From Umezawaea tangerina (lineage in GTDB: Bacteria; Actinomycetota; Actinomycetes; Mycobacteriales; Pseudonocardiaceae): DNA of 64,000 nucleotides. Position 1 is the first letter of the stretch, and every line of letters begins with the position of its first letter. A program made the translations under genes and the position numbers. Shown one piece after another: positions 34,874 through 53,928 of the stretch. The notes below the pieces were generated by a model. The model was not told where the DNA came from. It saw only the letters and a list, made by a program, of their open reading frames with translations, and did no database searches. The stretch spans positions 62,001-126,000 of the forward strand of contig NZ_PVTF01000005.1 in NCBI RefSeq assembly GCF_003002815.1, written 5' to 3'.

Positions 34874-34948
34874 ATCCCCATTTCCCTCGGAGAACACCGG
34901 GCGAGGTCGGCGCACGCCCAACGCGACACCATAGGCCGGCGACGACCT

Positions 34949-35129: not shown

Positions 35130-36251
35130 TCAGGAGTGGGGTGAGTGGCCTGCACCCGGGTCGTGGGTGTGCCAACTGGAGTGCCACCAGTCGTGGTGGC
35201 CGGGAGCTTGGTCCAGGTTGTCGTGCGGCGTGGTGGGCAGCGGATGTTGGTCACCGTGGTGATGGCCGTCGTGAGATTGACCGCCGGGCCCGTTGTGGTG
35301 CAAGTCGTGCCGGTGGTGGAGGTCTTGAGGGCTTGCGTGTTGGTGATGTGGTTCGGGGTGGTGGGGGTCGAGGTGGTGTTGGGCCCCGTGATGCGCCGTG
35401 TCGTGGTCGGGGTGGGATGCATGGTGGTCAGGGCGACGGTCGAAGGTGTCGTCGTTCACTTTGGACGAGTGGCCGTGGGATCTGTGGTGGCCAGTGGTGT
35501 GATCCGGCTCGGCGACCGTCCATTCCTGCACCTTCGACGACGCCGCAACGACGTGGCGGGCGGCAATGGCGATCTGGACCACGGCGATGGAGGGCAGAGC
35601 GTAGTCGCTCAGCGCTCGTCGGGTCGCGGTCTCGCCCCAGCGGACCCCTCCGGGGTGGGGGTCCGGCGCCGGCCCCGCCTTGGGTACGTGCAGCCACGCC
35701 TCGGTCGCGTAGTTCTTCTCCGGCACCGACAGCTCGACCAAGCGGAAGTCATCGGCCGTGAGACCTGGTGGATGCAGCGCGACGATCTCCTCGTGCAGCT
35801 GCGGTGTCAGGGCCACCACGAGATCGCTGTCCTCGGCGTCCTCCAGCGCCGCCCGCACACCGGGTGCGTCGAGCATTCGGTTGACCCGTACGATTCCATC
35901 GCCGAGGTAGCCGTTCGCCGAGCGCCGCAACGGGCTCTGGGTCAACGCGGCGCGCATCCGCATCCGACCGAACGCGCCGGTTACCAGGTTCAGGTGGTAG
36001 AGCCCGTCGCGCAGGCCGAGGATGAGGGCGGCGACCACTTCGGGATCACCCGCCCAAGCGGGGAAGACGACCAGATGCCCGTCCCCCTGTTCCTGCCGCT
36101 GCACCCGTACCTTGGTGACGCCGCACCGGCGCAACGCGTATCCGATCAGCCGCTGCAGCCGGTTCTGGGCGTCCCGCTGGCCCCGGTAGTTGTGGGTGCT
36201 GTACTTGCGCAGGTCCACTGAGAGGATCAGTCGGACCCGGCCGTCGAACAT
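35130..36251 (-). CDS. Nucleotidyl-cyclase-fold protein with histidine-rich tail
   Basis: 373 residues. Residues 1-190 look like a class III nucleotidyl cyclase fold: SVDLRKYS with metal-type Asp13, QGDGHLVVF with Asp57, and GYLGDGIVRVNRML (115-127) where cyclases have their G-x-x-V-N-x-A-x-R-L helix. Similar single-domain proteins with VDxxxYS/GDG motifs are common in actinomycetes without known activity. After about residue 250 comes a disordered tail with 36 histidines in 123 residues plus many Asp, likely metal-binding. The ATG shares one base with the stop of the dynamin-like gene (TGATG). Last gene of the left operon. Whether it makes a cyclic nucleotide is unknown. Confidence 0.65.
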   Translation of the reverse strand: MFDGRVRLILSVDLRKYSTHNYRGQRDAQNRLQRLIGYALRRCGVTKVRVQRQEQGDGHLVVFPAWAGDPEVVAALILGLRDGLYHLNLVTGAFGRMRMRAALTQSPLRRSANGYLGDGIVRVNRMLDAPGVRAALEDAEDSDLVVALTPQLHEEIVALHPPGLTADDFRLVELSVPEKNYATEAWLHVPKAGPAPDPHPGGVRWGETATRRALSDYALPSIAVVQIAIAARHVVAASSKVQEWTVAEPDHTTGHHRSHGHSSKVNDDTFDRRPDHHASHPDHDTAHHGAQHHLDPHHPEPHHQHASPQDLHHRHDLHHNGPGGQSHDGHHHGDQHPLPTTPHDNLDQAPGHHDWWHSSWHTHDPGAGHSPHS

Positions 36252-38206
36252 CAGGTCACCACCAGCTCGTCCACCAGGTCGCCGAGGTCCCTGATCGCAC
36301 GCCGTACTGTGCGGTCGACCTCCTGGTATTCGGCCTTGCGCCGGTCGACCTCCTCGGCTCCCGACTCGGTCGCCTGCCTCGCCTCCCGCACCGACCGCTC
36401 CACCGCGGCGAGCCGGTTGGCCATGCCGGTGGAGACCGCCTCCTCGATCGGTTCGATGTGCTCCTCGGCGAGCTGGCCCGCAACCTTTCGCGCCAGCTCC
36501 GGCGCCTTGAGCCGCAGCTGCTTGGCCAGTTCTGCGCCCACGTTCGCGCGGATCTTCCGTTCGACCCCGCTGAGCCCGCTCTTGCCCTGCACCAGTGCTT
36601 GGACGACCAGCATGCCCGCCAGGGTGGGCAGGCCGAACGGGGTGAACATCCACGCCGTGTAGATCGCCAAGGTTGGCAGCAACGTGCGCAGTGCCTCCTT
36701 CGGACCGAACCTGGCACCGATGAGGCCACCCGCCAAGCCTCCGAAGGCGAGTCCGCCGACCGCACCGATGAACCGCAGCAGCGGTGTCTCCTCGCTGCTG
36801 TCGGTCATCGAGTCCGCCCGCGCGATGCCGCTGAGAGCGGTCCGCAGTTTCTCCAGGTTCGCCTCGAACGTGCACAGGCGGGTGTTGAGCTGCTTGGTGA
36901 CGGCCTCCATCTCGCGCACGACCAGCGGCCCCAGGCGCTCCTCCGCCCACCGAACCATGCGTTCCTCGACGATGTTCAGCGTGCTCTGGGCGATCTCGGT
37001 CGCCGCGTTCTCAGCTCGTTCCTTGACCTTCCACGGCACCAGGGTCAGCGTGGTCTCCACAGGAGCCTCGACCGCGATGCCCTGCACTTCGCCCGCAATA
37101 GCCCTCAGCCCCTCGGCGAGCAGGGACTCGATCCGTCCCTCGACCATGGCCCGGTGGTTGGCCAGCTCGGCGGAGATCTGCTGCGCCTCCTTCTCCAGTG
37201 AGCGCAGCGGTTGCTGGGCCTCCTCCCACTTGCGCGCCAAGTCCTCGGACTTGACGTCGAGCAGCGCCAGCTGCTGCGGCACGGTGCGGTGCAGTTCCTG
37301 TGCCAAGCCTCGAAGCGTGTTGACCCTCGGCAGCATCTTGGCCCGGTGCCGGTCCCGCACGAGAAAGGTCTCCATCGCCTTCTCCAGTGCCTCGACCCCG
37401 GATTCGACGAACCGGGCCTTGTCCCCGGCCACCTTCGCGCGGAGCGCGCCACGGGCGTCGACGAAGAAGGTGCGGTCGGCGTCGGTGTCCTTCTCGCGAA
37501 CCCCGGCGATGCGTGCCCGCGCATCGCTCATGACGGTGGCGCGTTCGTCCTCGTCGATGTCGTCGAAGCGGGTGAACACGAAGAACGGGTCGTGTGCCCT
37601 GAGGTGGTTCTTGAGGAACTGGGTCTCCGCCGTGCTCATCGACGCGATCGCATGCTGCACGAACACCACGGCGTCCGCGCGACGCAGCTCCGTCTGGGTG
37701 ATGTCGTCGCGGCTGTTGTGCACGTTGAGTCCTGGTGAGTCCACGATCACCACGTTGTGCCTGCACAGCTCCAACCGCCAGAACACCTCGGCCAACCGGT
37801 ACGGGTTGTCCTTGTCCGGGTCGGCGGTGTCCACGGTGATCCGGTTGCCCAACTCCTTGGGGTCGACCTCGACCGGAGCCGCCGTGGTGTCCGTCGGCCA
37901 GAGCCTGGCCAACCGCTGCTCCCTGTACTTGACGTAGGTGATCACAGCGGTGGTCTCGACCGCCTTGACCGGCAACACGGGTTCGCCGAGCAGCGAGTTG
38001 ACCAGTGTGGACTTGCCGCGGTTGAAGTCGCCCACGAACATCACCCGGAACGCGTCGTCCTTGGCGATCTCGGCCTCTTCGGCGATGGCTTCCGCGTTGT
38101 CGCCCAGTTGGCCCGCGGCCCGCCCCAACTGCTCGCAGATGGCCAGAAGACGGTCCCGCTGGTCATCCGCGGCCGCGAAGCCGTCCGTCTGCGGTGCTGT
38201 GGACAT
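36251..38206 (-). CDS. Dynamin-like GTPase (third of three)
   Basis: 651 residues. GTPase domain: G1 GDFNRGKS (59-66), G2 threonines in VETTAVIT, G3 DSPG (156-159), G4 position TRFD (212-215, Arg in place of Lys). A long helical stalk with coiled-coil character follows (about 290-460), then a hydrophobic hairpin at 478-540 (FIGAVGGLAFGGLAGG, IYTAWMFTPFGLPTLAGM) and another helical region to the end. This is the bacterial dynamin-like layout with a membrane-inserting paddle. The ATG shares a base with the upstream stop (TGATG). Likely assembles on membranes with the two GTPases encoded just upstream. Confidence 0.85.
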   Translation of the reverse strand: MSTAPQTDGFAAADDQRDRLLAICEQLGRAAGQLGDNAEAIAEEAEIAKDDAFRVMFVGDFNRGKSTLVNSLLGEPVLPVKAVETTAVITYVKYREQRLARLWPTDTTAAPVEVDPKELGNRITVDTADPDKDNPYRLAEVFWRLELCRHNVVIVDSPGLNVHNSRDDITQTELRRADAVVFVQHAIASMSTAETQFLKNHLRAHDPFFVFTRFDDIDEDERATVMSDARARIAGVREKDTDADRTFFVDARGALRAKVAGDKARFVESGVEALEKAMETFLVRDRHRAKMLPRVNTLRGLAQELHRTVPQQLALLDVKSEDLARKWEEAQQPLRSLEKEAQQISAELANHRAMVEGRIESLLAEGLRAIAGEVQGIAVEAPVETTLTLVPWKVKERAENAATEIAQSTLNIVEERMVRWAEERLGPLVVREMEAVTKQLNTRLCTFEANLEKLRTALSGIARADSMTDSSEETPLLRFIGAVGGLAFGGLAGGLIGARFGPKEALRTLLPTLAIYTAWMFTPFGLPTLAGMLVVQALVQGKSGLSGVERKIRANVGAELAKQLRLKAPELARKVAGQLAEEHIEPIEEAVSTGMANRLAAVERSVREARQATESGAEEVDRRKAEYQEVDRTVRRAIRDLGDLVDELVVT

Positions 38207-40059
38207 CAGTTCCCTCTCTCGGAAAGGTCGGTGGCGGTACGGTCGAGATCAGCGCGGACGCGAGTAGCCAGAGCCTGCGTTGCGAAGGCGAAAGCCACCC
38301 AGTCAGTGGCATCCACGGGGTCGACTGCGGTTAGGACGTCCGCGTAGGACCGCTGCCACATCTCGTGGGAGCCATGGAGGTGCCCGACGACGTCGCCGTA
38401 CAGTTCCTCGACGGTGGTGACGGCGGTCGCGCCGAAGGCGCTGATGCTCTCGTCCACGGTCCGCACAAGCAGCGCGTCGATCTGCCGCCTCTGCGACTCG
38501 GTGGCCGAGCGGATCGCCCTCTCCGCGATCAGACTGCTGAGCACGCTGAACCCGATGGTGTAGATCATCGGCAGGCGCGCGTGCCGGGCGGCGGCCACGA
38601 GGTAGCCCAGGGCGGCGCCACCTTGGGCACCCACCCTGGCGGCCAGGCGCAGCTTGCTCAGGTCGTCGACCGCGGCGGTAGGTTGACCAGGGGCGGACTC
38701 CAAGCCCAACGCGCGCGGCACGGGAGACGGGTGCGCCTCGGGCAGGCCGCGGCGGACCGCGGCGTCGAGCCAATCGGTGTCCTGGGACAGACGCGCGAGC
38801 ATCGCGCGTTCGACTGCCTTGGCCATCACGGAGAGGTGCCAGCGGAGGCGGGTGGGCAGTTCCCGCTGCCACCAAGCGTGCGGGTCGCGTGCCGCCTCCA
38901 GTTCGTTCTGCAGGCTCGCCATGACGCTGGTGCGTTCCCCGTCCAGCAAGTCCTGGACGCGGCGAGCGGTGTCGAGCTGTCGCGACTGGACGCCGATGCG
39001 CAGCTCCGACCAGACCTGCTCCTCCTCGGCCAGATCCGCTTCAGCGCGGGCCGCGTGTTCGCGTTGTTCGGCCTCGGAGAGCCGGGCGAGCGCGGCGGCC
39101 TCCGTGGCGAGCCTGGCCATGGTGTCGCAGTGGTCGGCCACCGTCGCCGCGATCCGGCGGTCGCGCCACCTTCCGCGGTCGGCCTGTGTTGCCCAGCCGC
39201 CCACCAGCGACCGCAGGGCTGTTGCCCGATCGTCGTCCTCCTCCGGGTGCGGCGCAGTCAGGATAGGCAGCGCGCCGCGACCGGGTAGCGCGGCCAGCCG
39301 CTCACGCAGGTCGTCGACGATGCTGTCGCGATCGTCCGCATCGACCCTGTCGAGCATCGTCACGACAACCGCGATGTTCGGCAAGTGGCGGCAGAGCAGT
39401 TCTTCTTCCAGGAGCAGGCGTTCGGTGATGCCCAACGGTGAGATCGCCGAGATCACGAACAGCGCTCCGTCCGCCCCGGCCACCGACCGGCGCAGCCGCT
39501 CGACGTCAGGCTCATCGCCGCTGTTGGCACCAGGGGTGTCGACGAGTTCGAGGTCCATGTCGGTGAGCCAGGTACCCGCCACGTCGGCGACCACGCTGGA
39601 CGGGACGGAGTCGCCGTCGGAGTCGTCCACCAGCAACTCGCGCCACACGGCCCGTTCATCCAGTTCCGCAACCTGCGAACTCTTGTCGGGCCATGTCAGC
39701 CGCAGCGCCTCAGCGTGGTCTACGCCGCGCACTGCGATGTCGACCTGCGCGCCAGGAGACTGGCCGGTGGGCAGCAGTTTGCGTCCGATGAGAGTGTTGA
39801 CCAGGGTGGACTTGCCGCGGTTGAACTCGCCGACCACAGCCACTCGGAACGCAGGACGACCCCGCTGCGCAGCCAACGAATCCAACGCCTCGGTGATGGT
39901 GTCGAGGTGGTGGCGTTCGGCGAGATCGCGCGCCTCGCGAAGCCAACCCGGCAGCCGACGGGCCAGTGACGACCTTGTGGTCCGGGCGCGAGGACCAACG
40001 CGGCCCACGTCGGTCTCCGCAGACGTCGTCTTCTCGGTGTTGGTCTGTTCGGTGTTCAT
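38206..40059 (-). CDS. Dynamin-like GTPase (second of three)
   Basis: 617 residues. After a charged N-terminus, the GTPase domain has G1 GEFNRGKS (77-84) and G3 DTPG (174-177); the G4 position reads TMLD (234-237), lacking the usual Lys, so guanine specificity may be weak or come from a partner. Helical stalk at about 320-440, a small hydrophobic region near 510-540 (GYLVAAARHARLPMIYTIG) and a helical end. ATG at 40059 overlaps the stop of the first dynamin-like gene (ATGA). Members of bacterial dynamin pairs often differ in this way and form heteromers; that is known for the family and only inferred here. Confidence 0.83.
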   Translation of the reverse strand: MNTEQTNTEKTTSAETDVGRVGPRARTTRSSLARRLPGWLREARDLAERHHLDTITEALDSLAAQRGRPAFRVAVVGEFNRGKSTLVNTLIGRKLLPTGQSPGAQVDIAVRGVDHAEALRLTWPDKSSQVAELDERAVWRELLVDDSDGDSVPSSVVADVAGTWLTDMDLELVDTPGANSGDEPDVERLRRSVAGADGALFVISAISPLGITERLLLEEELLCRHLPNIAVVVTMLDRVDADDRDSIVDDLRERLAALPGRGALPILTAPHPEEDDDRATALRSLVGGWATQADRGRWRDRRIAATVADHCDTMARLATEAAALARLSEAEQREHAARAEADLAEEEQVWSELRIGVQSRQLDTARRVQDLLDGERTSVMASLQNELEAARDPHAWWQRELPTRLRWHLSVMAKAVERAMLARLSQDTDWLDAAVRRGLPEAHPSPVPRALGLESAPGQPTAAVDDLSKLRLAARVGAQGGAALGYLVAAARHARLPMIYTIGFSVLSSLIAERAIRSATESQRRQIDALLVRTVDESISAFGATAVTTVEELYGDVVGHLHGSHEMWQRSYADVLTAVDPVDATDWVAFAFATQALATRVRADLDRTATDLSERGN

Positions 40060-41900
40060 GTCGTTGCCCTTCCTACGACCGCTTCTGCTGGTGGTCCGCT
40101 CAGCGCTGCGCGCAGCCGCCCGATCTGCTCCCGACGCTCGCGCGCCTGTTCCGCCATCCGCGTGGCGGCGGTGATGAAGTCCGCCAACCGTTCCCGAGAC
40201 CGCGCTTCCCGCCACGCCAGGTCGTCCACATCGGACAGCCAAGCCCTTAGGTAGGCAACGCGAATGTGGTCGACCCGGTCGGCGTGGTCCGCGAGGACGC
40301 GCTTCACCGCGGCTTCGACGATCACCGCGACCTCGGTCCGCACCTCGGCGACCACAGGGGTGGCCTGGGCGAGGAAACGGGTGCGCTGAGTCTCGGTACC
40401 GGGAATACCCACGACGCTGCCGAACAGGGCACCCAGCACGGTGCCGACCACTGGGATCGGGATCATCACGGTGCCCGCGGCGGCGCCCAGGGCCGCACCG
40501 CCGCCTGCACGGAGAGCGGCGGAGTTCGACAGCCTGGTGCCGACAGCGGTGAGAGCGTCGTTGACCTTGGTCAGGTCGGGCGCGGCAGGCGCCGCCGCGG
40601 CGACCGGAGGTGGAGCGGGTACGGCCGTGTGGGCGTCGGCCAAGCGGGCAAGCCGGGCGAACTGGTCGATGAACTCCTCGGAGAGAGCCGTCGCCGAGCA
40701 CGAAAGCGCCTGGTCGATGCGGGTGATCACATCGGTGACCGCGGTGTGGGCAGCACTGTGCAGGCACTCTCGCACCGCCTCGATGGCCGCAGCCGCCATC
40801 TCGGCCGCGGTGGTGACCGAGCCCTGCTCCACAGCCTCGCGCATCCGGTCAACGAGGTCGGAGGCGAAGTAGCGGTGAGCGGCGGTGCCCCATGCAAGAC
40901 TGACAGCGTCGACGCCAGCCGCCACCGCGTCCTGCGCCCACGTCGCGAGGAACGCCCGAAGGTCCGGGAGGGACAGCCCGGCCAACTCCTGCTCCGCCGC
41001 AGCCAGCCGCGTACCGCGCCGGACCGCGGCCTGCTCGACCGTGCGCAGCAACTCGGTGAGCAGACTCGACAACGTCGCGGCGATCGCCGCCTGCCTTCGT
41101 CGGGCGGTCAACGCCACAAGCCCTGCCTCGACATCGGCGAACGGCATGCCCGCGTCGGGTTCGTCGACCGTGCGCAGTACCGCTTGCGGCACGCAGGGGA
41201 ACACCACGGGCTCCTCCACGCCCAACTCCCGCAACCGACGCGCGGTCACCTCCAGCACCTCGGCGCGCTCGTGCGGTTCCACCATGTCGATCTTGGTGAG
41301 CAAGAAGGCGCAGCGATCGCGGTGGTCCCGCAGCGGTCCGGACAGGAATTCGGCCAGCGTTCGGGACATCGCGGCTACCGCAGGGACGACCACGAGCACC
41401 AGGTCCGCGCTTTCGGCGGCGGCGACAGCCCGTTCGCGGTGCCCCGCGTCGTCGACGCTGAAGCCGGGGGTGTCGGTGATGGTGACGCCATCACCGAGCA
41501 AGGGGGTGGGCCAGCACAGTTCGAGGTCGTGGAGACCGTCGGCGGCATCGGTGGTGAGTGCATGGCGCAACGCGCTCGCCAAGTCCTCGACCCAACAGGT
41601 GCGACCGCCGGTGAGACGGGCTTGGGGGCCGTGTCGGATGGTCAAGGTGGTACGGGTCGCGACGAGCGCGGACGAGGGCAGCAGCCGCTGCCGCAGGAAC
41701 GCGTTGAGCAGCGTGCTCTTGCCACTGGAGGTCTCACCGAGTACCGCGATGTGCAACTCCGGGTCGCCCATGCGCGCCCGCACCCGCGCTACCGCGGCAT
41801 TCGCCCACTCACTGCGCCCACGCGGCAGGTCGACCTGCCCGAGTGCGGCGACGATCCAGTCCAGGTGTTCGCCGTACTCACGCGGTCCTATCACGCCCAT
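40056..41900 (-). CDS. Dynamin-like GTPase (first of three)
   Basis: 614 residues. GTPase motifs are complete: G1 GETSSGKS (55-62), G2 ATRTTLTI, G3 DTPG (143-146), G4 TKID (202-205). The long helical middle part leads to a glycine/alanine-rich hydrophobic hairpin near 470-505 (AALGAAAGTVMIPIPVVG, TVLGALFGSVVG), then a helical C-terminus rich in Arg. First gene of the left operon, with GGAAGGGGG before the ATG, facing the 553-bp divergent control region. It is the most canonical of the three. Confidence 0.87.
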   Translation of the reverse strand: MGVIGPREYGEHLDWIVAALGQVDLPRGRSEWANAAVARVRARMGDPELHIAVLGETSSGKSTLLNAFLRQRLLPSSALVATRTTLTIRHGPQARLTGGRTCWVEDLASALRHALTTDAADGLHDLELCWPTPLLGDGVTITDTPGFSVDDAGHRERAVAAAESADLVLVVVPAVAAMSRTLAEFLSGPLRDHRDRCAFLLTKIDMVEPHERAEVLEVTARRLRELGVEEPVVFPCVPQAVLRTVDEPDAGMPFADVEAGLVALTARRRQAAIAATLSSLLTELLRTVEQAAVRRGTRLAAAEQELAGLSLPDLRAFLATWAQDAVAAGVDAVSLAWGTAAHRYFASDLVDRMREAVEQGSVTTAAEMAAAAIEAVRECLHSAAHTAVTDVITRIDQALSCSATALSEEFIDQFARLARLADAHTAVPAPPPVAAAAPAAPDLTKVNDALTAVGTRLSNSAALRAGGGAALGAAAGTVMIPIPVVGTVLGALFGSVVGIPGTETQRTRFLAQATPVVAEVRTEVAVIVEAAVKRVLADHADRVDHIRVAYLRAWLSDVDDLAWREARSRERLADFITAATRMAEQARERREQIGRLRAALSGPPAEAVVGRATT

Positions 41901-42453
41901 CCCCCTTCCCTCACCCGAACCACCCGATCATCTGTCTATTGAGGACACAATGACATCCGACGTTGCACCTTTGCCGGCAAGCGCGGATATCGAGTACCGT
42001 GCCGGCTTTCCCCGCCCTACCTCGAAAGATGCGATTTCGACCACGACAGGGAATCCCCGTCGTGAACATTCGACTGCACTCGACCGGACGCCTCAGCGAA
42101 CTCGAGCAAGAGTGTTCGCCGGATGCTGACAGCACACAGCTCAACACTGTGAACAGCGAATACATCCGATCGAAGATCCTAGGCGGGCGAACCCGCAACA
42201 TGACTCACCGTGTCCGCAACGCCCTATCAACCACGTCCCTTCAACCGTGCCCAGGATGCCCCCGAACCTAACCGCCGAAGACTCAGCTTCCGTCGTTTCG
42301 ATCCGAACATCCGTTACAGCCAAGAGAAGTCCGCAGAACTGCGGCTCAAACAAGACGTCTCCGCCGCCATGTCATGAGATGTAACGACAGCGACGTGATT
42401 CGCGAACTTCGCGGTGGAGAAAAAGCGCAAGGCTGGACGAGAGGGCGTGGCGC
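41901..42453. promoter_or_regulatory. Divergent control region of the GTPase/Hsp70 cluster
   Basis: 553 bases between the two operons' first genes, lower in GC than both flanks, with no convincing ORF on either strand. It must carry both promoters. The clearest structure is a 23-bp inverted repeat at 42042-42064. Nothing resembling a regulator gene or small RNA could be defined. Confidence 0.6.
42042..42064. promoter_or_regulatory. 23-bp inverted repeat in the divergent control region
   Basis: CACGAC-A-GGG-AAT-CCC-C-GTCGTG: arms of ten bases with one mismatch each side of a 3-base centre. Either an operator or a hairpin; it lies 142 bases from the left operon and 390 from the right. Confidence 0.5.
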
Positions 42454-44844
42454 ATGGCGTTAGGCGGTCCAGGCGGCGATTTCGGTGAGATCGCCGCCTT
42501 TGCGAACGAGGTTCGCGAAGCAGTCGAGTCCGTCTTCGACCACGCCGAGCTCCACGACGAGAGGGAGCGGGTTCTCGGTCTCGCACGGTCGCTGGCCGAC
42601 AACGCTGTGTGCGAGGTCTCGTACGGCGTTTTCGCAGAGTCGTCTGCCGGCAAGTCACTGCTGCTCGGGGCTCTGCTGGGCAACCCGTTGCTGCTGCCGG
42701 TGGACAGCCGCACCGTCACGTGCAACATCACCGAACTCCGGTTGCGCCCGGCGGCCGTGCGAGTAGCCACCATCGTCGGAGCGCGGGTCGAGTACCTCAG
42801 CGACGATGAGGTGCACGACTACGTCCGGCACTTGGCCCACAAAGTGGGGGGCCTGGTCAGAGGGGCGGGCGGTGACCTTTCCACCGTGCAGGACATCACT
42901 TACAACTGGTCCGGCCTGCACCGGTTGCGGCAGGTGCTCGACACTCCGGAGTCTTTGCGGTTGCCACCGAACGGGTTGGTGGATCTGCGCACCGAGGTCG
43001 ACGAGATGCTAAGGGCGGAGGAATCCCTGCGGGCCCGTGGCGTCAACCCTGGTGCGACGGAAGACCTGGTCACCCCTGATGGCTTTTTCGACGCCGCAGC
43101 GATGAGCGCGCTCATCGACCACGGTGAGCCTGGAAACGGGGGTACGCAGCGCGCGGGTGAGCAGGCGCTGGTGCGCAAGGTGGTCGCCGAGGTGGAGATC
43201 CCCGTCGACGTGTGGGAGGCCGCCAAGCTGTTCGGCGCCGCGGTGAAGCTGGTGGACATCCCCGGTTCGCTGAGCAGCCGTCGACCAATACGCGACGAGT
43301 ACCTACGAGTGCGCGAGCTCGACACCGTCGACACCGCGCTGTTCTTCCTCGACTCCCGCCCCGGCAGCACCCATGAGTCTCGCGCCCTGCAAGACCTGAT
43401 GAGCTCGGGAAAGCGGGACGGCGACCTGCTCCGCGACGCAGTCCTCGTGGTGGCTGCCAAGTTCGACCTCATCCCCGAAGTACCGGGGCTCCTGCTCGAT
43501 GAACCTCCGGTCGACGCAGAGGAGACGGCCGTCCTGAGCCGCTCGGTCGTGTTGCAGCAGCTCGTGACGGCATCCAGGAACTTGCTACCGCCCGGCCACG
43601 ACGAACGAATCTTCTTCGTCTCGCCCTACGTCACGATGGCACTGGCGGACGAACTCGACCTCGGTTGGGACGCAGACCAGGTCGTCGCACACTTGCGCGC
43701 GAGTCAAGAAGTGACCTCGGCACGTGACAAGGCACTTCGCTGGCGCGAGGTCGGGCACGTTCCCGGTCGGCTGGGCGAGGGGCTGACGGCGTTCACCGTC
43801 GATGGTGGCCTGCGCCGCCTCCGCGACGGCATGACGAGCCACGCCGCGCACCACGGGGTCGCCCAGGCACTTGACCGGTTGCGCCGCCAAGCGGACGAGC
43901 TCGGCACCGCCTTCCAGCGGTTGGAGCGCCATCGCGTGGACCTCGGGCCGGTACCGACCGGGGACGACGATGTCCGACTGCTGTTCGAGCGCGTCCTGGG
44001 CGAGCTGGCCGACCGCGTCACGGAAGCACGGAAAGCGCTGCCAAGGCGACTGGCCGACCCCGAAGCCCTCCCGTCGATCGGCGCCTCCCCCGGAGAACGG
44101 GTGCGCCAGTTGGCGGAGCGCACCGTGTACGACTGGCCGGAGTGGAAACAACTCTTCGAGAACCTGACCGACGGCATGGTGCGGGTGACAGCTTCGAAAC
44201 CACTGGGCGACATGTGGGCGGACTTGTTCGACGATGCTGCCGCACCCGTTTTGGTCAAGGATTTCGAGGGGCGGTACCGCGAAGCCTGCGCCGAGGTGGC
44301 CACTTCGTTGACGAGGCTGGTCGAGGACCGTGTGGAGACCTACCTGGACGAAAGCGCACTGATCACCTCGGGCCAACACGACCTGATCGGCAGTGTGCTC
44401 ACCGAGTCGGTCTTCCGACGGCTGGGCCACGACCTCGGAGGCCGCAGGCTCGCGGTCGCGGTCAACGCGCTCTCGCACCTGGAAGTGCTGGTGGGCAACG
44501 TCCGCAAAACGCTGTCGACCACGACCTCCGAAGTCGATGACCGCTACTTCCCCCTGGACCCGACGCGCGCACTGCCGTGGCACCAGGACTCGCCACGACG
44601 GGGCAGCGAGTCCTATACCGGCATCGGCCAGGTGCTGCGGCTCCGACAGACGATGGTCGACGCCGTGATCGCCGCGTGCCGCAGCACCCTCGCCGCAGTC
44701 CTCTCCACAGCCGCCGACCAGCTCGAACGCGATCTTCGTGGGTTGGAGAGAACGTTCGGAACCATCAACCAGGACTCCGTGCACTGGATCGCTCTTGTCA
44801 CCGAGGCACGCCGCGCGGACGGCACTGAGGAGATCGTGCGATGA
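42454..44844 (+). CDS. Large P-loop GTPase, SrfC-like
   Basis: 796 residues. Unusual GTPase: Walker A AESSAGKS (61-68), G3 DIPG (268-271, preceded by VKLV), G4 position AKFD (335-338). A 200-residue insertion separates G1 from G3. The rest is long and helical without a clear membrane hairpin. Size, the SAGKS-type loop and the following Hsp70-fold gene recall the SrfC (putative virulence factor) plus SrfB pair, but I cannot run the comparison. GAGAGGG lies nine bases before the ATG; the stop overlaps the next start (ATGA). First gene of the right operon. Confidence 0.6.
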   Translation: MALGGPGGDFGEIAAFANEVREAVESVFDHAELHDERERVLGLARSLADNAVCEVSYGVFAESSAGKSLLLGALLGNPLLLPVDSRTVTCNITELRLRPAAVRVATIVGARVEYLSDDEVHDYVRHLAHKVGGLVRGAGGDLSTVQDITYNWSGLHRLRQVLDTPESLRLPPNGLVDLRTEVDEMLRAEESLRARGVNPGATEDLVTPDGFFDAAAMSALIDHGEPGNGGTQRAGEQALVRKVVAEVEIPVDVWEAAKLFGAAVKLVDIPGSLSSRRPIRDEYLRVRELDTVDTALFFLDSRPGSTHESRALQDLMSSGKRDGDLLRDAVLVVAAKFDLIPEVPGLLLDEPPVDAEETAVLSRSVVLQQLVTASRNLLPPGHDERIFFVSPYVTMALADELDLGWDADQVVAHLRASQEVTSARDKALRWREVGHVPGRLGEGLTAFTVDGGLRRLRDGMTSHAAHHGVAQALDRLRRQADELGTAFQRLERHRVDLGPVPTGDDDVRLLFERVLGELADRVTEARKALPRRLADPEALPSIGASPGERVRQLAERTVYDWPEWKQLFENLTDGMVRVTASKPLGDMWADLFDDAAAPVLVKDFEGRYREACAEVATSLTRLVEDRVETYLDESALITSGQHDLIGSVLTESVFRRLGHDLGGRRLAVAVNALSHLEVLVGNVRKTLSTTTSEVDDRYFPLDPTRALPWHQDSPRRGSESYTGIGQVLRLRQTMVDAVIAACRSTLAAVLSTAADQLERDLRGLERTFGTINQDSVHWIALVTEARRADGTEEIVR

Positions 44845-47792
44845 CCCGAACCGGATCCGAAGAGCACGACAGGTTCTCATGGCCGCAGAACCCGTGGTGG
44901 TCCTCACCCCCGACCGAAAACCTGAGTGACCCGGAGCATCCGGCTCCGGAACCTGAAACCCGCGGAGTGCGGACCGCTGACCGCATCAGACCTGGCTACG
45001 GCGGAAGGGCCGCCTTCGACCTGGGCACGACCACCTCCACGGTGACGGTGTGGGACCCGCAGGAGGCGACCTACCCATCGCTGTCGCCGGTCCAGCGGCA
45101 CAAGCTCGCCGACGCGTTCGCCGACCTGTTCGACCAGGAACCTCCTGGAGGCAGCGGTTTGCGGATCGCGTGGCGCGAGTTCGGGTGCAGCGTGGCCGAC
45201 AAGCTGTCCCCGGTGCCGGGGCGGGTCGAACGGGTGGGGACGGCAGAACGGCTGCGCACCAGGGACGGGCACCGCACTGCTCTCGACACCGTGATCACCG
45301 AGTTGGAGCGGGCTTGTGTGAACGGCACATCGGAAATGCGCCGGTACCTCACCCCTCAGTTGGCCCGGTGTTACCGGGAAGCACTCGCTGTGCCACCGCT
45401 GGACTCCCTGCGCTATCACCGCGCGTACTTGGAGGGCCGGACCCACGACGAACTGCCGAGCGTCGTGTGGGACACCCACGAGCAGAACGCCAGGCGCTTC
45501 CGACTGGGCAGCAGACCGGAGTCGGACGGGCAGCTGTGGGAACCGGTCGCCTACCGCGGGTTGAAGCAGCAGCTCGGGCGGCGTACACCCCGCCAGTTCG
45601 GGTCGTCCGACGGCCCTACCCTCGACCAGCTGATGACCGGTGCCCTGAACGACCTCACCTACCGCACCAACCGCTACCTCGAGAACTTCCGGACAGAACT
45701 CAACCTGATCCGCGGTGAGCTCGTCGACGTGGTCCTCACCTATCCGACGATGGCACCGTTGTCGGCTCGGAACAAGTTGCGGTCCATGATGGGCCAAGTC
45801 GGGATCCTCACCCTCGACACGAGCTTCGACGAGGCGGTCGCCGCCGCGATGTTCTACGTCCTGCGCTCGGTCGGCGGGCGCACGGACATGGCCGTCGAGT
45901 CGTTCTCGTCCCGGTGCGATCCCGTCCCCGGCGAGAACCTCACGCCCGACGGACGCCCCACGGCTTGGCAACAGCACGTCCTGATCGTGGACGTCGGCGG
46001 GGGTACGGTCGACATTGCGCTGATCAGACTGGGTCTGCGCGATGAGACCGACCGCACGGCCCCCGGTGCGGACTCGCCGCATTACGGTAGGTACTTCCGA
46101 CTCAAACCGACCCTGCTCGGTACCACCGGGGACAGTCAACGCGGCGGTGACTTCGTCACGCTACAGGTCTTCCGGTGGATCAAGGTGCTGCTGGCGAACC
46201 ACGTGCTGATGTCCTCCCCGCGGGTGGCGGAGTCGGTGCGCGACCAACTGGGCAGGCGGTACTTCGACGCCTACGACGTGTACTTGCCGGACAAGCTGGT
46301 CACTTCGGCGCTGGACGTCCTGTCGGACCTGAGCCAGGCTGCCGCGGCAGCGGGCCACGTAGTGCCCACCCAGTGGCGGGACACCACCCCTGGCCTTCGT
46401 GGTTCTGCCGCCGAGCGCGAGCAGCTGTTCACCAAGCTCTGGGAGATCGCGGAACAGGCCAAGATCGACCTGGGGGTGCACGAGACGGTCGAGGTCGACG
46501 ACATCGCGCTGCGGGCGGTGTTCGACTCGTTGCGTGAGATGCACGAAGCGGTCGGTGGCGAGTCGCTCACGGCGCCGCGGATCTTGCTGCGGCAGCAGGA
46601 CTTCGTCCACCTGCTCGAACCGGAAATCCGGCAGACCATGAACCTGGCCGCCGACCTGGTCGCCACGCGCCTGCCGAACGACCAGCTGCACCAGGTCGTG
46701 CTCACCGGACGGGGGTCGCTGCTGCCGCAGGTCCGCGCCCAGCTCGTGCAGGCGCTCTCGAGGTGGTTCACGGAGGAGCCGGTGCCGCGGCCGGTTCCCC
46801 CGATCCTGAGCTACGGCGACGCCTACGCCAAGCACGCGGCGTCCATCGGCGCCTGCTGGGCATCCACTGTGGACCGCAGGACTCAGGAGAACGTGCGAGC
46901 GCGGTTGGCCGACGGCGTCACCTGGTTGACAGTGGAGGTGGACAACCTCTTCCGCTCGATGCCCGCCGCGTTCGTGGTCCCGGCCGCGGCCGAGATCGGA
47001 CCGAGTGGTACGACGCCGCTGTTCGGCATGGACGCGGAGCTGCGACCAACCGAAGCCGGCGGCGAACCGGTCGTGCGAGCCGGATGGGTGCAGTACCAGA
47101 ACCCGTTCCGGGTGGACCGGCTCAAGGCGTTCGAGATCTCCCACCAGTGGGCGTACCTGCGGTTGGAGGAGTTCTTCAAGGTGGAGGAACTCGATGGCCA
47201 CAAGTTCGGCCCCGCACTGGCCCGCGAGCTCTTCGTCCAGGTCGAGGCGTCCGCAAGCCTGGAGATGTGGGCACTGGTGTGCCGCGGCGGGGTCCCGGAC
47301 ATCACTCTCCCCCATGCATCCACGTCGATGCGGCTGGTTGAGCCCGTTGATCGGTTCGACGTGGTACTGGACGACGTCGTGGCGGATCCCACCATCACCG
47401 GCTTCATGGACGACTCCATGCCAGAGCCCGTGTTCACCGCGGGTGATGCTTTCGACTGCGTCCTCGTGGTGGGCGGAAGCCGCCGCCGTGCCAAGATCAG
47501 TGGACCTCTGGAAGTCCCGCAAGCCCACGGATGGCGGTTTCACAGATCAACCGGCGGCAACTACGCCGAGCCTGTCGTGATCCCGGCACCTGACTGCGCA
47601 GACGGCTTGCGCCACCACGCGGTGCTCGACGAGACGGGGATCCTCCACGTTGTCGCAGGGCCGCCGCCCTACCGTGCAGCGCAGAACCTCCAAGAGCTCC
47701 TCGACTCGCCTGGTTCGGTCCTGCGGCTGATGATGACCTCGGCCGAACCGGACTACCAGTCGCAGAGCGACCCGTTCACCGGACTCCAATGA
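44841..47792 (+). CDS. Hsp70/actin-fold ATPase, SrfB-like
   Basis: 983 residues with a complete actin/Hsp70 ATP-binding set: phosphate 1 AAFDLGTTTSTVTVWD (Asp60), VVLTYPT (connecting strand), phosphate 2 LIVDVGGGTVDIAL (Asp384), GDSQRGGDFVT, the helix WEIAEQAKIDLG and the adenosine motif VVLTGRGSLLPQV (619-631). The 350-residue C-terminal part is not a DnaK substrate domain. Length near that of SrfB proteins and pairing with a large GTPase support an SrfB-like assignment. Coupled by ATGA overlaps on both sides. It may act as an ATP-driven assembly factor for the GTPases. Confidence 0.75.
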   Translation: MTRTGSEEHDRFSWPQNPWWSSPPTENLSDPEHPAPEPETRGVRTADRIRPGYGGRAAFDLGTTTSTVTVWDPQEATYPSLSPVQRHKLADAFADLFDQEPPGGSGLRIAWREFGCSVADKLSPVPGRVERVGTAERLRTRDGHRTALDTVITELERACVNGTSEMRRYLTPQLARCYREALAVPPLDSLRYHRAYLEGRTHDELPSVVWDTHEQNARRFRLGSRPESDGQLWEPVAYRGLKQQLGRRTPRQFGSSDGPTLDQLMTGALNDLTYRTNRYLENFRTELNLIRGELVDVVLTYPTMAPLSARNKLRSMMGQVGILTLDTSFDEAVAAAMFYVLRSVGGRTDMAVESFSSRCDPVPGENLTPDGRPTAWQQHVLIVDVGGGTVDIALIRLGLRDETDRTAPGADSPHYGRYFRLKPTLLGTTGDSQRGGDFVTLQVFRWIKVLLANHVLMSSPRVAESVRDQLGRRYFDAYDVYLPDKLVTSALDVLSDLSQAAAAAGHVVPTQWRDTTPGLRGSAAEREQLFTKLWEIAEQAKIDLGVHETVEVDDIALRAVFDSLREMHEAVGGESLTAPRILLRQQDFVHLLEPEIRQTMNLAADLVATRLPNDQLHQVVLTGRGSLLPQVRAQLVQALSRWFTEEPVPRPVPPILSYGDAYAKHAASIGACWASTVDRRTQENVRARLADGVTWLTVEVDNLFRSMPAAFVVPAAAEIGPSGTTPLFGMDAELRPTEAGGEPVVRAGWVQYQNPFRVDRLKAFEISHQWAYLRLEEFFKVEELDGHKFGPALARELFVQVEASASLEMWALVCRGGVPDITLPHASTSMRLVEPVDRFDVVLDDVVADPTITGFMDDSMPEPVFTAGDAFDCVLVVGGSRRRAKISGPLEVPQAHGWRFHRSTGGNYAEPVVIPAPDCADGLRHHAVLDETGILHVVAGPPPYRAAQNLQELLDSPGSVLRLMMTSAEPDYQSQSDPFTGLQ

Positions 47793-48853
47793 GCAGCCAC
47801 CGGTGCTTGGAGGAGGTGCTGCGAGCCGCGCTGGACGGGTCGTCGGCGACTACGGCCCGTGCGGCTGTGGCCGGTGCGGTGGCCGCTCTGCGCAGCGCGA
47901 CAGACGCTCCCGACGACGTGACCAGAGCAGCAGACCTGCTCGCGTCACTGCTGGCGGACGACCACGATTCGAACAGCTCCGACCCGATACCGATCGTCAG
48001 CCCTGGTCCGGTTCAAACTCTGGCCGCGACTTTCGAGGCCGACCCCGAAGTCTCGGTGTGGCTGGGCGACACGGCGGTGAGCACCACTGCGGAGGGTACG
48101 ACATGGGAGCGTCTGTGGTTGTCGATGCTCCGGCTGCCACCCGACCTCGCGGATGCCTGGCGGCGACGAGCGCGAGCCTTGCCCCGTGACAACGCGGACC
48201 TGCCGTGGCAGGAGGTTCCGGGTACCTCCGAGGTGCTCGTGGAGCCGGGGTTCGGGGTCCCGGGACTGCGGGAGTCGTCCGATGCCCTTCCACTCGGTGC
48301 GGAAGCCCTGCCGGACCGGTTCGCGGACCTGCGCGCGGTGGCAGGTCAGGTACTCGCGATGGCCGGGCACGACCCGGCCCTGCACCATGCCCTGGAGAGC
48401 AGGCGACGACAGGACTTCCACTCCCTCGCCGAGCCGAAGAACCTCAAGGACTTCAGGCGCGACGCCGCCAACCGGTTCTCCTACCTCGCCGACGCCCCCG
48501 TGGGATCAGTGCGCGAGCTGCGTGAACTGGTGCTCGTCGACGAGTTGCTCAACTCGGTGGTCCACGTGCCTCCCGCGCACCCCGAGAGCTGGTGGGGCAG
48601 GCTTGGGAAGCGATCTCGCGCGGTGCTCACCGAGTCGGCGTCCGCGTTGCGCGGAGGTCCGGACGTGGTCGAGGTCCGGGTCATCCCGCCGGGCCCGTTC
48701 GACGCTCAGCGCGCCTGGGTCGGCAAGCACAACCTCTCGTGCCCGGTCCCCGGACGTCCACCCAGCCAGATCCTCGCCTGCCTGCGCGTCCACCTCCGCG
48801 CAGGTGGGGAGGACCATGCCGGCCGGGTCATCTACGTCCGGGACGAACCATGA
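47789..48853 (+). CDS. Unknown protein of the GTPase/Hsp70 cluster
   Basis: A 354-residue soluble protein with no motif I recognise. The N-terminal 60 residues are Ala-rich helices, the middle has LADAWRRRARALPRD and a helical RQDFHSLAEPKNLKDFRRDAANRFSYLAD segment, and the C-terminus has short strands (VEVRVIPPGPFDA, GRVIYVRDEP). By position it could correspond to a third component (SrfA-like or adaptor), but there is no sequence evidence for that. ATGA overlaps join it to the Hsp70-fold gene and the next GTPase gene. Confidence 0.7.
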   Translation: MSSHRCLEEVLRAALDGSSATTARAAVAGAVAALRSATDAPDDVTRAADLLASLLADDHDSNSSDPIPIVSPGPVQTLAATFEADPEVSVWLGDTAVSTTAEGTTWERLWLSMLRLPPDLADAWRRRARALPRDNADLPWQEVPGTSEVLVEPGFGVPGLRESSDALPLGAEALPDRFADLRAVAGQVLAMAGHDPALHHALESRRRQDFHSLAEPKNLKDFRRDAANRFSYLADAPVGSVRELRELVLVDELLNSVVHVPPAHPESWWGRLGKRSRAVLTESASALRGGPDVVEVRVIPPGPFDAQRAWVGKHNLSCPVPGRPPSQILACLRVHLRAGGEDHAGRVIYVRDEP

Positions 48854-49587
48854 GGATCCTTTTCCTCGGCAGGTCCCGGGTCGGGAAGACCTCGGTGATC
48901 GCACGAGGACTCGCCGAGCTCACGCTTCTCCTGGGTTCACGCACCACCGTGGACGACCGAGTGCGGCTCGGCCGGGTCCGACGGGCCGTCGATCGAGGGC
49001 GCCCTCCCAGACCAACGCGTGGCCTCCCGGTCTACCGAACCCGGCTGCGTGACAGGACGTGGCTCGACTGCGCCGACCACGACGGCAGGCTGCTGGAGCG
49101 CTCCGCTGCGGACGAGCGGATGCTCGCCGCGCCCTCCATGGCCGAGGCGCTGGTGCTGACTGTCGACGCGCCGTCGTTGACCAGGGTCTCGGCGTCAAGT
49201 GACGTGGCACGCCTGGCCGTCGTCGTACGGCGGTGGATCCACGAACGCGGTCCTTCGGGTACGGAGCCCTCGCGTCTGCTGCCTGTCGTGCTGGCGATCA
49301 CGCACATGGACCAGTTGGACAAGAACAAGACCCTCGAGGAGGTGGTGGCGCTGTTCGACCCCCTACGGGCGGTGGGCGCGACGAGCTCGCGGATCACCGG
49401 GCTCACCGTGTCTGTCAACGCGGGCTCACCCAGTGGGCACTGCGCGTTGCCGCTGTTGTGGGGGCTCCGCCACGGCATACCCGCGATGGCGAATGAGGTC
49501 ACTGCCGTGTGGCCCGTCGGCCCGCTACCGGCTTGGTCGTGGGGTAGCAACGGATTCGACCGGAAGAGGGCGACTTGGCATCCATAA
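48850..49587 (+). CDS. Small P-loop GTPase-like protein
   Basis: 245 residues: G1 GRSRVGKTS (7-15) right at the N-terminus, WLDCADHDG as probable Walker B/G3, EALVLTVDA strand, and ITHMDQLD at the G4 position (His in place of Lys). A compact Ras-like/TRAFAC domain without other modules. ATG overlaps the preceding stop. It is paired with a second P-loop protein whose TTG start lies 13 bases before this stop; the two may form a heterodimer, as in double-GTPase conflict systems. Confidence 0.7.
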   Translation: MRILFLGRSRVGKTSVIARGLAELTLLLGSRTTVDDRVRLGRVRRAVDRGRPPRPTRGLPVYRTRLRDRTWLDCADHDGRLLERSAADERMLAAPSMAEALVLTVDAPSLTRVSASSDVARLAVVVRRWIHERGPSGTEPSRLLPVVLAITHMDQLDKNKTLEEVVALFDPLRAVGATSSRITGLTVSVNAGSPSGHCALPLLWGLRHGIPAMANEVTAVWPVGPLPAWSWGSNGFDRKRATWHP

Positions 49588-50615
49588 CCGTGACGATGTT
49601 GGGCGCTTCCGGGTCCGGCAAGACAACATACCTCCACGGCATGTTCACGCAGCTCGCACGCGGGTCGGGCGACTTCGGCCTGTTCGAGCGCGATCCCGAC
49701 CTGGAACTGGATCTCATCGAGGGGTGGCGGGCGCTCGCCGAACACGGCGTGGTGCCCGAGGCCACGGATGAGAACCCGCGGTTCTACGAGTTCGTCCTCC
49801 AGCACCGCGAGCACACCGCGGCTACCATGAGCTGGGCCGACTTCCGCGGCGGAGCCCTGTTCACCCGTTCGGACCAGCACAGCGACGTGCTCCGCCTGCG
49901 TTCGCGGCTGATGGAGTCGGACTCCATCCACCTGGTCCTGGACGGCGGCACGCTCGCCGAAGCCCGGCTCCCGCACGACGTCCCCCGTCTCGCGACCACG
50001 CTCGGCGCCGAACGCATGTCGACGCTGGTCCGGGGCGTGGTCGACGCGCGAGCAGCACAAGGGCTCGCGCTGCCGTCGATCGTCGTGCTGATCACCAAGG
50101 CCGACCGGATCGTCAACGCTGCCCATGCCAACGGCGTGCCGCACGACAAGCGGCTGGCGGAGGTCATCGTGGCCGTCATCGACATGCTGCCAGTCCTGAG
50201 CCGGACGAGGCTCACCGCGATGGTGTGCCCGGTGCAGGTCGGCTGGTTCGGCGAAGCCGAGCACAACATCGACCCCGCGCGCGTCGACACCCAACGGTTG
50301 CACCAGCCCATCCTGTTCAGCGCGCGGCACCAGCACTTCACGGAGGAGTTCCGCCAACGGGCGGTGATCACCAGGCTGACCGGAGAGGTTGCCGCGCGGC
50401 AAGCCGAACTGGACGCCCTGCTGGTGCACCCGTTCCGGCTCCCAGGCAGGCGCTCCAAGGTGGAGTCCTCGCTGCGGGAAGCCCGGACTCGGCTCGCCGC
50501 CGCGGAACACGCCCGCGCGACGGCCGCCTACTGGTCCTCCGTGCTGGCCAGCAAGATCGACACCGACGTACCTATCATCCACGAGGGCAGGCACGTTCAA
50601 AGGGGCTCGGCATGA
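49575..50615 (+). CDS. P-loop GTPase, TRAFAC-like
   Basis: 346 residues: G1 GASGSGKT (10-17), G3 DFRG (89-92), G4 TKAD (174-177), all in order with typical spacing, so probably a true GTPase. A C-terminal helical region follows (RLTGEVAARQAELDALL, SSLREARTRLAAAEHARAT), likely a coiled coil for interaction. Start is TTG at 49575 with GAAGAGGG before it, overlapping the previous gene by 13 bases. The stop overlaps the next ATG. Confidence 0.75.
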   Translation: MASITVTMLGASGSGKTTYLHGMFTQLARGSGDFGLFERDPDLELDLIEGWRALAEHGVVPEATDENPRFYEFVLQHREHTAATMSWADFRGGALFTRSDQHSDVLRLRSRLMESDSIHLVLDGGTLAEARLPHDVPRLATTLGAERMSTLVRGVVDARAAQGLALPSIVVLITKADRIVNAAHANGVPHDKRLAEVIVAVIDMLPVLSRTRLTAMVCPVQVGWFGEAEHNIDPARVDTQRLHQPILFSARHQHFTEEFRQRAVITRLTGEVAARQAELDALLVHPFRLPGRRSKVESSLREARTRLAAAEHARATAAYWSSVLASKIDTDVPIIHEGRHVQRGSA

Positions 50616-51373
50616 CCGACAACACCTGGTCGCCCGTGGTCTACGCACGCATCCCCGCACACGACAACTGGTGGCGAACCGTACCGAACGGCACCAGCAT
50701 CCCGGTGTCAGGCTGGTTGGCCACGGTCGTGCACGCCGTTGTGCAGGGCGGCCGCGACCTGCGTTTCGGTCCGCGCTTCCTGCTGGCGCGCCGTGATGGG
50801 TGGTGTGTGGTCGGCGTCGCGTGCCAGGCCGCCGAACTCAGCGACTCGATGCATTCCGACGGCGCACGGGAACTTTACACCTTCGTCGGTTGGCACGGCA
50901 CCGGACCCCCACCCGAACTCACCACGCTGCGCAAGCACTTCCACACCTGGGCAGGCGTGGAGTACCACCGCTGGATGAGTCCGGTGTGGACGCATTCGGC
51001 AGCGGAGTCCGTTTCCCCGCAGATCGTTCAGTCCGGACCAGCACCGTGGCCGCTTCCCTTGACCGCTGATCCCCGCTCATCCGAGTGCCCACCGCCGGAA
51101 CCCGCAGTAGTGCACGTCTGGCCGGAGGCGCAAGCCGACCCGCTGTGGCGAGCGGCCGCCATGACTGACGGGCTCGTTACCGTGATCGGCCTCCGAGTGA
51201 CCCGATCGACCATGCAACCCGGCATTACGCATGCCACGTCAGCCGACACGACCGACCGGCGAAGAATTCCCACCAGCCATGTCGACCACAGCGCCGCGCC
51301 CACCAAGACCTCCCCGAAGACGAGCCGCATAGCCCGCCTGGTGGTCGACCTGGTGCGTCGCCGATCCCGCTGA
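50612..51373 (+). CDS. Unknown protein, last gene of the right operon
   Basis: 253 residues. The first 130 form a compact domain rich in Trp and His (YARIPAHDNWWRTVPNG, FGPRFLLARRDGWCVVGVACQ, YTFVGWHGTG, HTWAGVEYHRWMSPVWT), the rest is a proline-rich linker and a basic end (VVDLVRRRSR). No family recognised. The ATG overlaps the P-loop gene stop (ATGA). In this position it could be the effector or a sensor of the system, which is speculation. Confidence 0.65.
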   Translation: MTDNTWSPVVYARIPAHDNWWRTVPNGTSIPVSGWLATVVHAVVQGGRDLRFGPRFLLARRDGWCVVGVACQAAELSDSMHSDGARELYTFVGWHGTGPPPELTTLRKHFHTWAGVEYHRWMSPVWTHSAAESVSPQIVQSGPAPWPLPLTADPRSSECPPPEPAVVHVWPEAQADPLWRAAAMTDGLVTVIGLRVTRSTMQPGITHATSADTTDRRRIPTSHVDHSAAPTKTSPKTSRIARLVVDLVRRRSR

Positions 51374-53798: not shown

Positions 53799-53928
53799 GC
53801 CCCGACTGTAACCACCGCCGCCGCCACGAGGTTGGGCACCGGATGGGCACCGGACCGGGCTGGTGGTCGCGCCCCCGCCCGGTGACGATCTTGCCGCGAG
53901 CACCTCGCTCCTCCCACCGACGAAGGAC

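Follow-up and report, generated by a model that had tools for sequence, protein, structure and literature searches.

Ten genes, g1 to g10, at positions 35130-51373 of a 64,000-nucleotide segment of the Umezawaea tangerina genome (the window) fall by sequence comparison into three modules that recur separately in other genomes. Module A (g4-g3-g2-g1) encodes three dynamin-like GTPases and a predicted cyclase-fold protein, module B (g5-g6-g7) has at its core a SrfC-like GTPase and a SrfB-like ATPase of the Hsp70/actin fold, and module C (g8-g9-g10) combines a DO-GTPase-like pair with a partner protein (Table 1). The best reading of the cluster, at about even odds, is a defense-type, membrane-acting function: it would be a composite conflict-system island encoding an anti-phage or envelope-damage system that is gated by a nucleotide signal and by nucleoside triphosphate (NTP) hydrolysis and acts at the membrane.

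We favor defense because of the genes found with relatives of these modules. The left operon recurs with all four genes in the same order in another genome of the class (G277), where a PycTM-like gene and a Crp/Fnr-type gene follow it; a g1-type cyclase gene lies near module B in four of seven loci, and Crp-type and CHAT genes in three of seven each; on Streptomyces plasmids the neighbors of a g1-type cyclase are a Crp gene and an annotated Pycsar effector or, in another case, a MoxR gene; and the Anabaena plasmid pANA01 unites an Hsp70 gene, a GTPase pair, g10-type genes, two dynamin genes and a CHAT gene. Bacillus DynA, moreover, delays phage lysis from the membrane (PMC8844932). The nucleotide cyclases or sensors, the regulators that bind cyclic nucleoside monophosphates (cNMPs), the PycTM-like proteins and the CHAT proteases of these relatives are the kinds of parts that make up abortive-infection systems.

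Relatives of the three modules

Sequence profiles support the fold guesses of the initial annotation, which had proposed a cyclase-fold, His-rich protein, a SrfC-like GTPase, an Hsp70/actin-fold ATPase and small GTPases in addition to three dynamin-like GTPases. The last are g2, g3 and g4, with Pfam Dynamin_N scores of 94.4, 67.1 and 83.8 bits (cut-off 27); all three also match LeoA of PADLOC as their best family (g2 at an expectation value, E, of 5.6e-20 and g4 at 1.6e-13), with LeoBC rows weaker and PADLOC rows having no cut-off. Positions 8-131 of g1 give a weak profile match to the cyclase Ma1120 (E 0.0026), ranking under RecA concatemers that were set aside as a presumed artefact. Its two metal-type aspartates, D13 and D57, are invariant in 6/6 aligned homologues and present also in G277, and its His-rich tail is kept in all three proteins compared at full length, those of G277 and G353 included; PADLOC returned no family for g1 or its G353 homologue at E up to 1.

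A search of 74 class genomes with g2 gave a single strong match outside the genome itself, with 49% identity, in G277, which contains homologues of g4 (39.5% identity over 628 amino acids), g3 (49.3% over 548), g2 (48.7% over 638) and g1 (42.1%), including the one-base overlap of g2 and g1. Three bases past its cyclase gene lies a gene for a 163-amino-acid PycTM-like membrane effector, and then the divergent Crp/Fnr-type gene; one flank contains a sugar kinase and a pair of ABC transporter genes, the other a sigma factor and DnaG. The PycTM-like protein is 42% identical to that of G353, and a very small local comparison puts it at 26% identity (E ~1e-6) to a protein with the annotation 'Pycsar system effector family' that itself matches PADLOC PycTM at E 7e-10.

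Ten plasmid matches to the cyclase were obtained, six of them, on Streptomyces plasmids, with usable annotation (H2, H3, H9 and H10 had none). On three of the six plasmids, which are near-identical to one another, the g1-type cyclase lies in an island (L049, L083 and L084) with a Crp regulator, the annotated Pycsar effector and a 1750-amino-acid TPR protein, with transposases and an integrase nearby. On a fourth the g1-type domain ends a protein with a SAV_2336 N-terminal domain and is accompanied by the MoxR gene, a layout that recalls the MoxR-centered systems of Kaur et al. (PMC7159879); on a fifth the cyclase adjoins genes for a Crp regulator and an AAA ATPase, and the sixth lacks neighbors of such kinds. 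Neither the plasmid and G353 cyclases nor the PycTM-like proteins received an informative name from NCBIfam.

For module B, g5 scores 13.2 bits with PF10139 (SrfC; cut-off 28.1) over profile positions 6-63 and 20.8 bits with Dynamin_N, and its three-row profile matches the bacterial dynamin 2j68 at E 0.001; by these matches it is a remote dynamin/SrfC-type GTPase. The predicted Hsp70/actin fold of g6 is supported because two stretches of its three-row profile (387-408 and 528-658; best E 6e-5) map collinearly onto Hsp70 chains. Scores with PF07520 (SrfB) are 9.8 bits for g6, 15.1 for the G353 homologue and 13.2 for that of Nocardia, all below the cut-off of 27.1; the G353 homologue of g5 reaches 14.9 bits with PF10139, again below cut-off, and the Nocardia SrfC-like protein does not match PF10139 even at E 1. 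The third protein, g7, has no Pfam match and no named family.

Relatives of this core were found at six other loci, in G353, G1086, G957, G1065, G905 and a contig of Nocardia bovistercoris. The SrfC-like gene is directly upstream of the SrfB-like gene in 7/7 loci, the match in G1086 being weak (E 4.6e-5, 124 amino acids), and g7 is recognizable by sequence in four of the six others (G353, G1086, G957 and G1065), with G905 and Nocardia having just a frame at the same position. A gene for a DUF4407-type membrane protein is upstream of the core in five of the seven (by Pfam in Nocardia, by tblastn in G905, G1065, G957 and, over 81 amino acids, G353). The g1-type cyclase is less than 10 kb from the core in the window, G353, G1065 and G957. 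Across the six whole genomes there are 25 copies of the cyclase family, and the chance that in four or more genomes one of them lies no more than 10 kb from the SrfB-like gene is ~2e-7, a figure that assumes uniform placement, ignores the clustering of defense genes and uses a copy-count profile that includes the four clustered cyclases. The Crp-type regulators in three of the core stretches read are of the cNMP-binding kind, one of the three CHAT proteases is barely at cut-off (24.1 versus 24 bits), and a PycTM-like gene is present at one locus, that of G353. A second, degenerate cyclase-family protein in which the Asp motifs seem absent adjoins a CHAT gene in G1065 (L046:11063-11905) and G957 (L048:12627-13268).

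The SrfB-like protein is rare, with strong matches in 2/296 and 2/396 phylum genomes, 2/397 order genomes and 6/296 class genomes; these counts include its own genome and G353 each time, the Nocardia contig being extra. Twelve of the 14 matches in the order genomes (E 5.7e-5 to 8.1e-4, 64-117 positions) were presumed to be ordinary Hsp70-type genes and set aside, and weak g6 matches in G119, where none of the ten proteins matches the surrounding 16-kb stretch, and in G332 were dropped. A scan of genome contigs gave no relative with g6 alone and one locus, that of Nocardia, with a two-row profile. PF07520 matched nothing in 149 phylum genomes and 14 controls, a null that does not prove absence, and tblastn searches of plasmids gave no match for g6, its G353 homologue, g5 or g8.

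In module C, g9 is a borderline DO-GTPase (PF19993, 26.6 bits versus a cut-off of 27), whereas g8 has no match to that model; a 337-amino-acid Anabaena relative of the g9 type scores 57 bits with it. The g8 product, a degenerate GTPase, matches a GTPase from a Calothrix plasmid (blastp E 2e-6), and g9 is 25-29% identical to three proteins of cyanobacterial plasmids (E 1e-26 to 9e-20). The best Pfam match of g10 is unrelated (E 0.14), and its three cyanobacterial homologues have no Pfam and no NCBIfam family.

The order g8-like GTPase, g9-type GTPase, g10-type protein is found on plasmids of Anabaena sp. 90, Calothrix sp. PCC 6303 and Geminocystis sp. NIES-3708, the g10-type gene directly following the g9-type gene on all three. 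On pANA01 the Hsp70 gene and CHAT protein are upstream, and the two dynamins downstream, of the GTPase pair and g10-type genes; the Calothrix plasmid has Hsp70 and dynamin genes ~10 and 17 kb from the set, and none is annotated in the stretch of the Geminocystis plasmid that was read. The Anabaena g10-type protein as query revealed no further plasmid with the family. On the Geminocystis plasmid an annotated anti-phage dCTP deaminase with an adjoining dGTPase (L056:28347-30230) is ~9 kb from the g9-g10 genes.

Layout of the cluster

All ten reading frames are present in two divergent operons, as the initial annotation had described, and the tight coupling that it reported is seen at 8/8 within-operon junctions, which overlap by 1 to 13 bases; the likely starts of g1, g3, g8 and g10, from which the overlaps are counted, are well within their longest open frames. 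The left operon occupies 35130-41900 on the minus strand and the right operon, g5 to g10, 42454-51373 on the plus strand. The frames are not chance, because homologues of every product exist outside the window; those of g8 and of g10 (best E ~1e-9), from small local comparisons, are the weakest.

Table 1. Genes of the cluster and the region between its two operons, with window coordinates.
Feature	Coordinates	Strand	Size or remark
g1, predicted class III cyclase-fold protein with His/Asp-rich C-terminal tail	35130..36251	-	373 aa
g2, dynamin-like GTPase	36251..38206	-	651 aa
g3, dynamin-like GTPase	38206..40059	-	617 aa
g4, dynamin-like GTPase	40056..41900	-	614 aa
Intergenic region between operons	41901..42453	.	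553 bases; presumed from its position to carry both promoters
g5, SrfC-like large GTPase	42454..44844	+	796 aa
g6, SrfB-like Hsp70/actin-fold ATPase	44841..47792	+	983 aa
g7, third protein of core g5-g6-g7	47789..48853	+	354 aa
g8, degenerate small P-loop GTPase, first of DO-GTPase-like pair	48850..49587	+	245 aa
g9, DO-GTPase-like small GTPase, TTG start	49575..50615	+	346 aa
g10, new domain family	50612..51373	+	253 aa

The sequence suggests that the cluster is an acquired island, because its guanine-plus-cytosine (GC) content is lower (0.680, versus 0.725 in the 16 kb to the left and 0.744 in the 12.6 kb to the right) and g6 has no match in either of two genomes of the same genus. At E 1e-12, g4 likewise has no match in both.

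Directly downstream of g1 is an AfsR/SARP-type regulator with BTAD, NB-ARC and TPR domains (32117-34921, minus strand), one of a large family that has 88 matches in this genome. Just past the right operon and facing it, an AAA_16/STAND-like ATPase frame (51819-54257, minus strand) scores below the AAA_16 cut-off.

Proposed mode of action and alternatives

We infer the following order of events, and with it action against phage, an active cyclase and cooperation of the modules in this cluster. Infection or envelope damage would be sensed by module B, module C or both, the GTPase and ATPase of module B serving as an NTP-driven switch for sensing and assembly and the GTPase pair of module C, with its partner domain, as a second switch. 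NTP hydrolysis would release the switch and the cyclase would change the nucleotide signal; the cyclase-fold protein of module A may make or bind that signal, and the three dynamins to which it is coupled would be the membrane-acting arm. Assembly of the dynamins at the inner membrane would have one of two outcomes, sealing of the membrane with later release of phage or a breach that kills the cell, and in both cases neighboring cells would be spared. A more specific version, a signal-gated dynamin defense that combines three dynamins with a His-tailed cyclase (and, in relatives, with a PycTM-like effector) and is switched here by a SrfB/SrfC-like Hsp70-GTPase engine and, as a second switch, by paired GTPases, is a tentative proposal and less likely than not.

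If this version is correct, dynamins would serve a nucleotide-signal immune system as its regulated effectors, and Srf-type Hsp70-GTPase pairs would have a place in immunity. Dynamins of bacteria already have links to phage resistance (DynA, and the LeoA models in the defense library), and the G277 operon, with its three dynamins, a cyclase, a PycTM-like effector and a Crp-type gene, is a compact set for testing a nucleotide signal together with dynamins. The g5-g6-g7 core would provide a conflict-system setting for the poorly understood Srf-type pair, and g10 represents a domain, common to this genome and Cyanobacteriota, that has no Pfam or NCBIfam model.

Several observations weigh against the defense reading. 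The g1 family apparently lacks the transition-state Asn that is canonical for class III cyclases, so g1 may bind a nucleotide without making one. The g1-type family is also common, with 8 copies in each of the two same-genus genomes in which g6 was not detected. The PycTM label of the G277 and G353 proteins is weak, because the former has no Pfam family and the latter matches PADLOC PycTM at E 0.0013, and tblastn with the relatives' proteins found no PycTM, CHAT, Crp or DUF4407 relative in the window. Four scans of viral contigs, with g6, g5, g10 and GTPase profiles, gave no relative. Structure predictions, made from alignments of g6 and of g5 with just the Nocardia homologue, were unusable, with mean predicted local distance difference test scores of 29.5 for g6 and 39.6 for g5. 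An association of dynamins with the g5-g6-g7 core, finally, is seen in the window alone, because the dynamins of G353 are not orthologues of g2-g4: that pair had been considered as confirmation of the window's dynamins and was rejected when the tree separated the two, the G353 dynamins pairing instead with those of Anabaena (support 99/96 and 99/97). Right after the G353 pair is a gene for an Hsp70 domain fused to WD40 repeats (L014:3801-5864), whose product is 30% identical to the Anabaena plasmid Hsp70.

The ten genes could also be two or three independent systems, possibly each of them defensive, that sit side by side in one island and do not cooperate, a serious alternative that falls short of even chances and is compatible with the other readings. 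Conservation of all ten genes as a single unit is not what we found: no g5-g10 homologue was detected in the 59 kb read around the left operon of G277, no dynamin was detected near the core at five of its six other loci, three of the seven core loci have no nearby cyclase, and g8-g10 stand apart on the cyanobacterial plasmids, with the g10 family occurring in 1/148 class genomes, the window's own. The halves thus split, but they do not behave as unrelated parts, since the g1-type cyclase is near the right core again in G353, G1065 and G957; in addition, g5 to g10 form a single run of overlapping genes, and Hsp70, GTPase pair and dynamins occur together in Anabaena. That all ten products form one complex, which the coupling had been said to imply, is unproven.

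A membrane-housekeeping or stress machine, performing dynamin-type membrane repair like Bacillus DynA or mycobacterial IniA/IniC in place of defense, we consider unlikely. Three other dynamin pairs are encoded in the same genome, at C5:546 kb (L016), C1:814 kb (L018) and C1:55 kb (L017), and the first two adjoin an acidic protein and an apparent LuxR-type regulator in an IniB-IniA-IniC-like layout. However, g2-g4 do not group with these Ini-like pairs, falling outside the clades of the own-genome pairs in a tree in which the fork that holds them has support of 85/88, deep support is low, and g3 and g4 are long branches. The cluster is also sporadic: a search of 150 family genomes with g6 returned its own genome and one weak, short match, g4 is unmatched in the two same-genus genomes, the GC content of the island is low, and the relatives have effector-type neighbors. 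DynA has been linked not just to phage resistance but also to membrane surveillance against antibiotics, which would suit a housekeeping role, and it collects on the membrane during infection (PMC8844932).

Among the candidate functions first suggested (phage defense by membrane remodeling, vesicle formation and secretion), membrane-acting defense is the best supported, because in relatives the same types of genes lie beside those for CHAT proteases, for Crp regulators that bind cNMPs and for a PycTM-like effector. An apparatus for secretion or vesicle formation that is related to SrfABC is very improbable: g5, g6 and their relatives align with PF10139 and PF07520 at corresponding positions, and a heteromeric complex of SrfA, SrfB and SrfC has been reported (PMC6950479), but every Srf score is below cut-off, no secretion-system Pfam family is present among the ten products, and the relatives' neighbors indicate conflict systems.

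Comparison with known systems

Among the defining features that could be decided from sequence, the cluster departs in at least one from each of Pycsar, SrfABC and DO-GTPase/GAP1. Searches of the open-access literature found no paper joining SrfC, SrfB and dynamin, and none on a bacterial operon of dynamin-like, Hsp70-like and cyclase genes; the novelty of the system is provisional. With SrfABC the cluster shares a large GTPase next to an Hsp70-fold ATPase, accompanied by a third gene, but the order is C-B-third and the neighbors in relatives are of conflict type. Pfam includes GAP1 models, and there is no GAP1, GASH or FNIII Pfam match in the ten products, the g10 domain being present instead; the paired DO-GTPase-like GTPases, with an Hsp70-fold gene in the operon, would be a feature in common with the DO-GTPase/GAP1 systems (PMC7159879). 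According to Kaur et al. 2020, those systems are nearly completely absent from cyanobacteria, and the word dynamin does not occur in the main text of that paper (PMC7159879).

Several dynamin-family GTPases per operon, and the LeoA matches of g2, g3 and g4, are likenesses to the LeoA/LeoBC systems, which the present cluster differs from in having three dynamins with a cyclase and no distinct LeoBC-type gene evident. The LeoA/LeoBC systems are also known as Eleos. Pycsar and dynamin systems are listed apart in PMC11811056.

Pycsar systems make cUMP or cCMP and protect against phage. In Pycsar a cyclic nucleotide activates PycTM or PycTIR (PMC11224242). The cluster differs in the three dynamins upstream of the cyclase and in that a search of the window for PycTM relatives or motifs, not extended to PycTIR, gave none; g1 has no PADLOC PycC match and apparently no canonical Asn. 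It resembles Pycsar in having a predicted protein of the class III cyclase fold in which both metal Asp residues are present, with a PycTM-like protein by the cyclase in G277 and G353, and the metal-binding C-terminal region of g1 may parallel the zinc finger of clade D PycC (PMC11224242).

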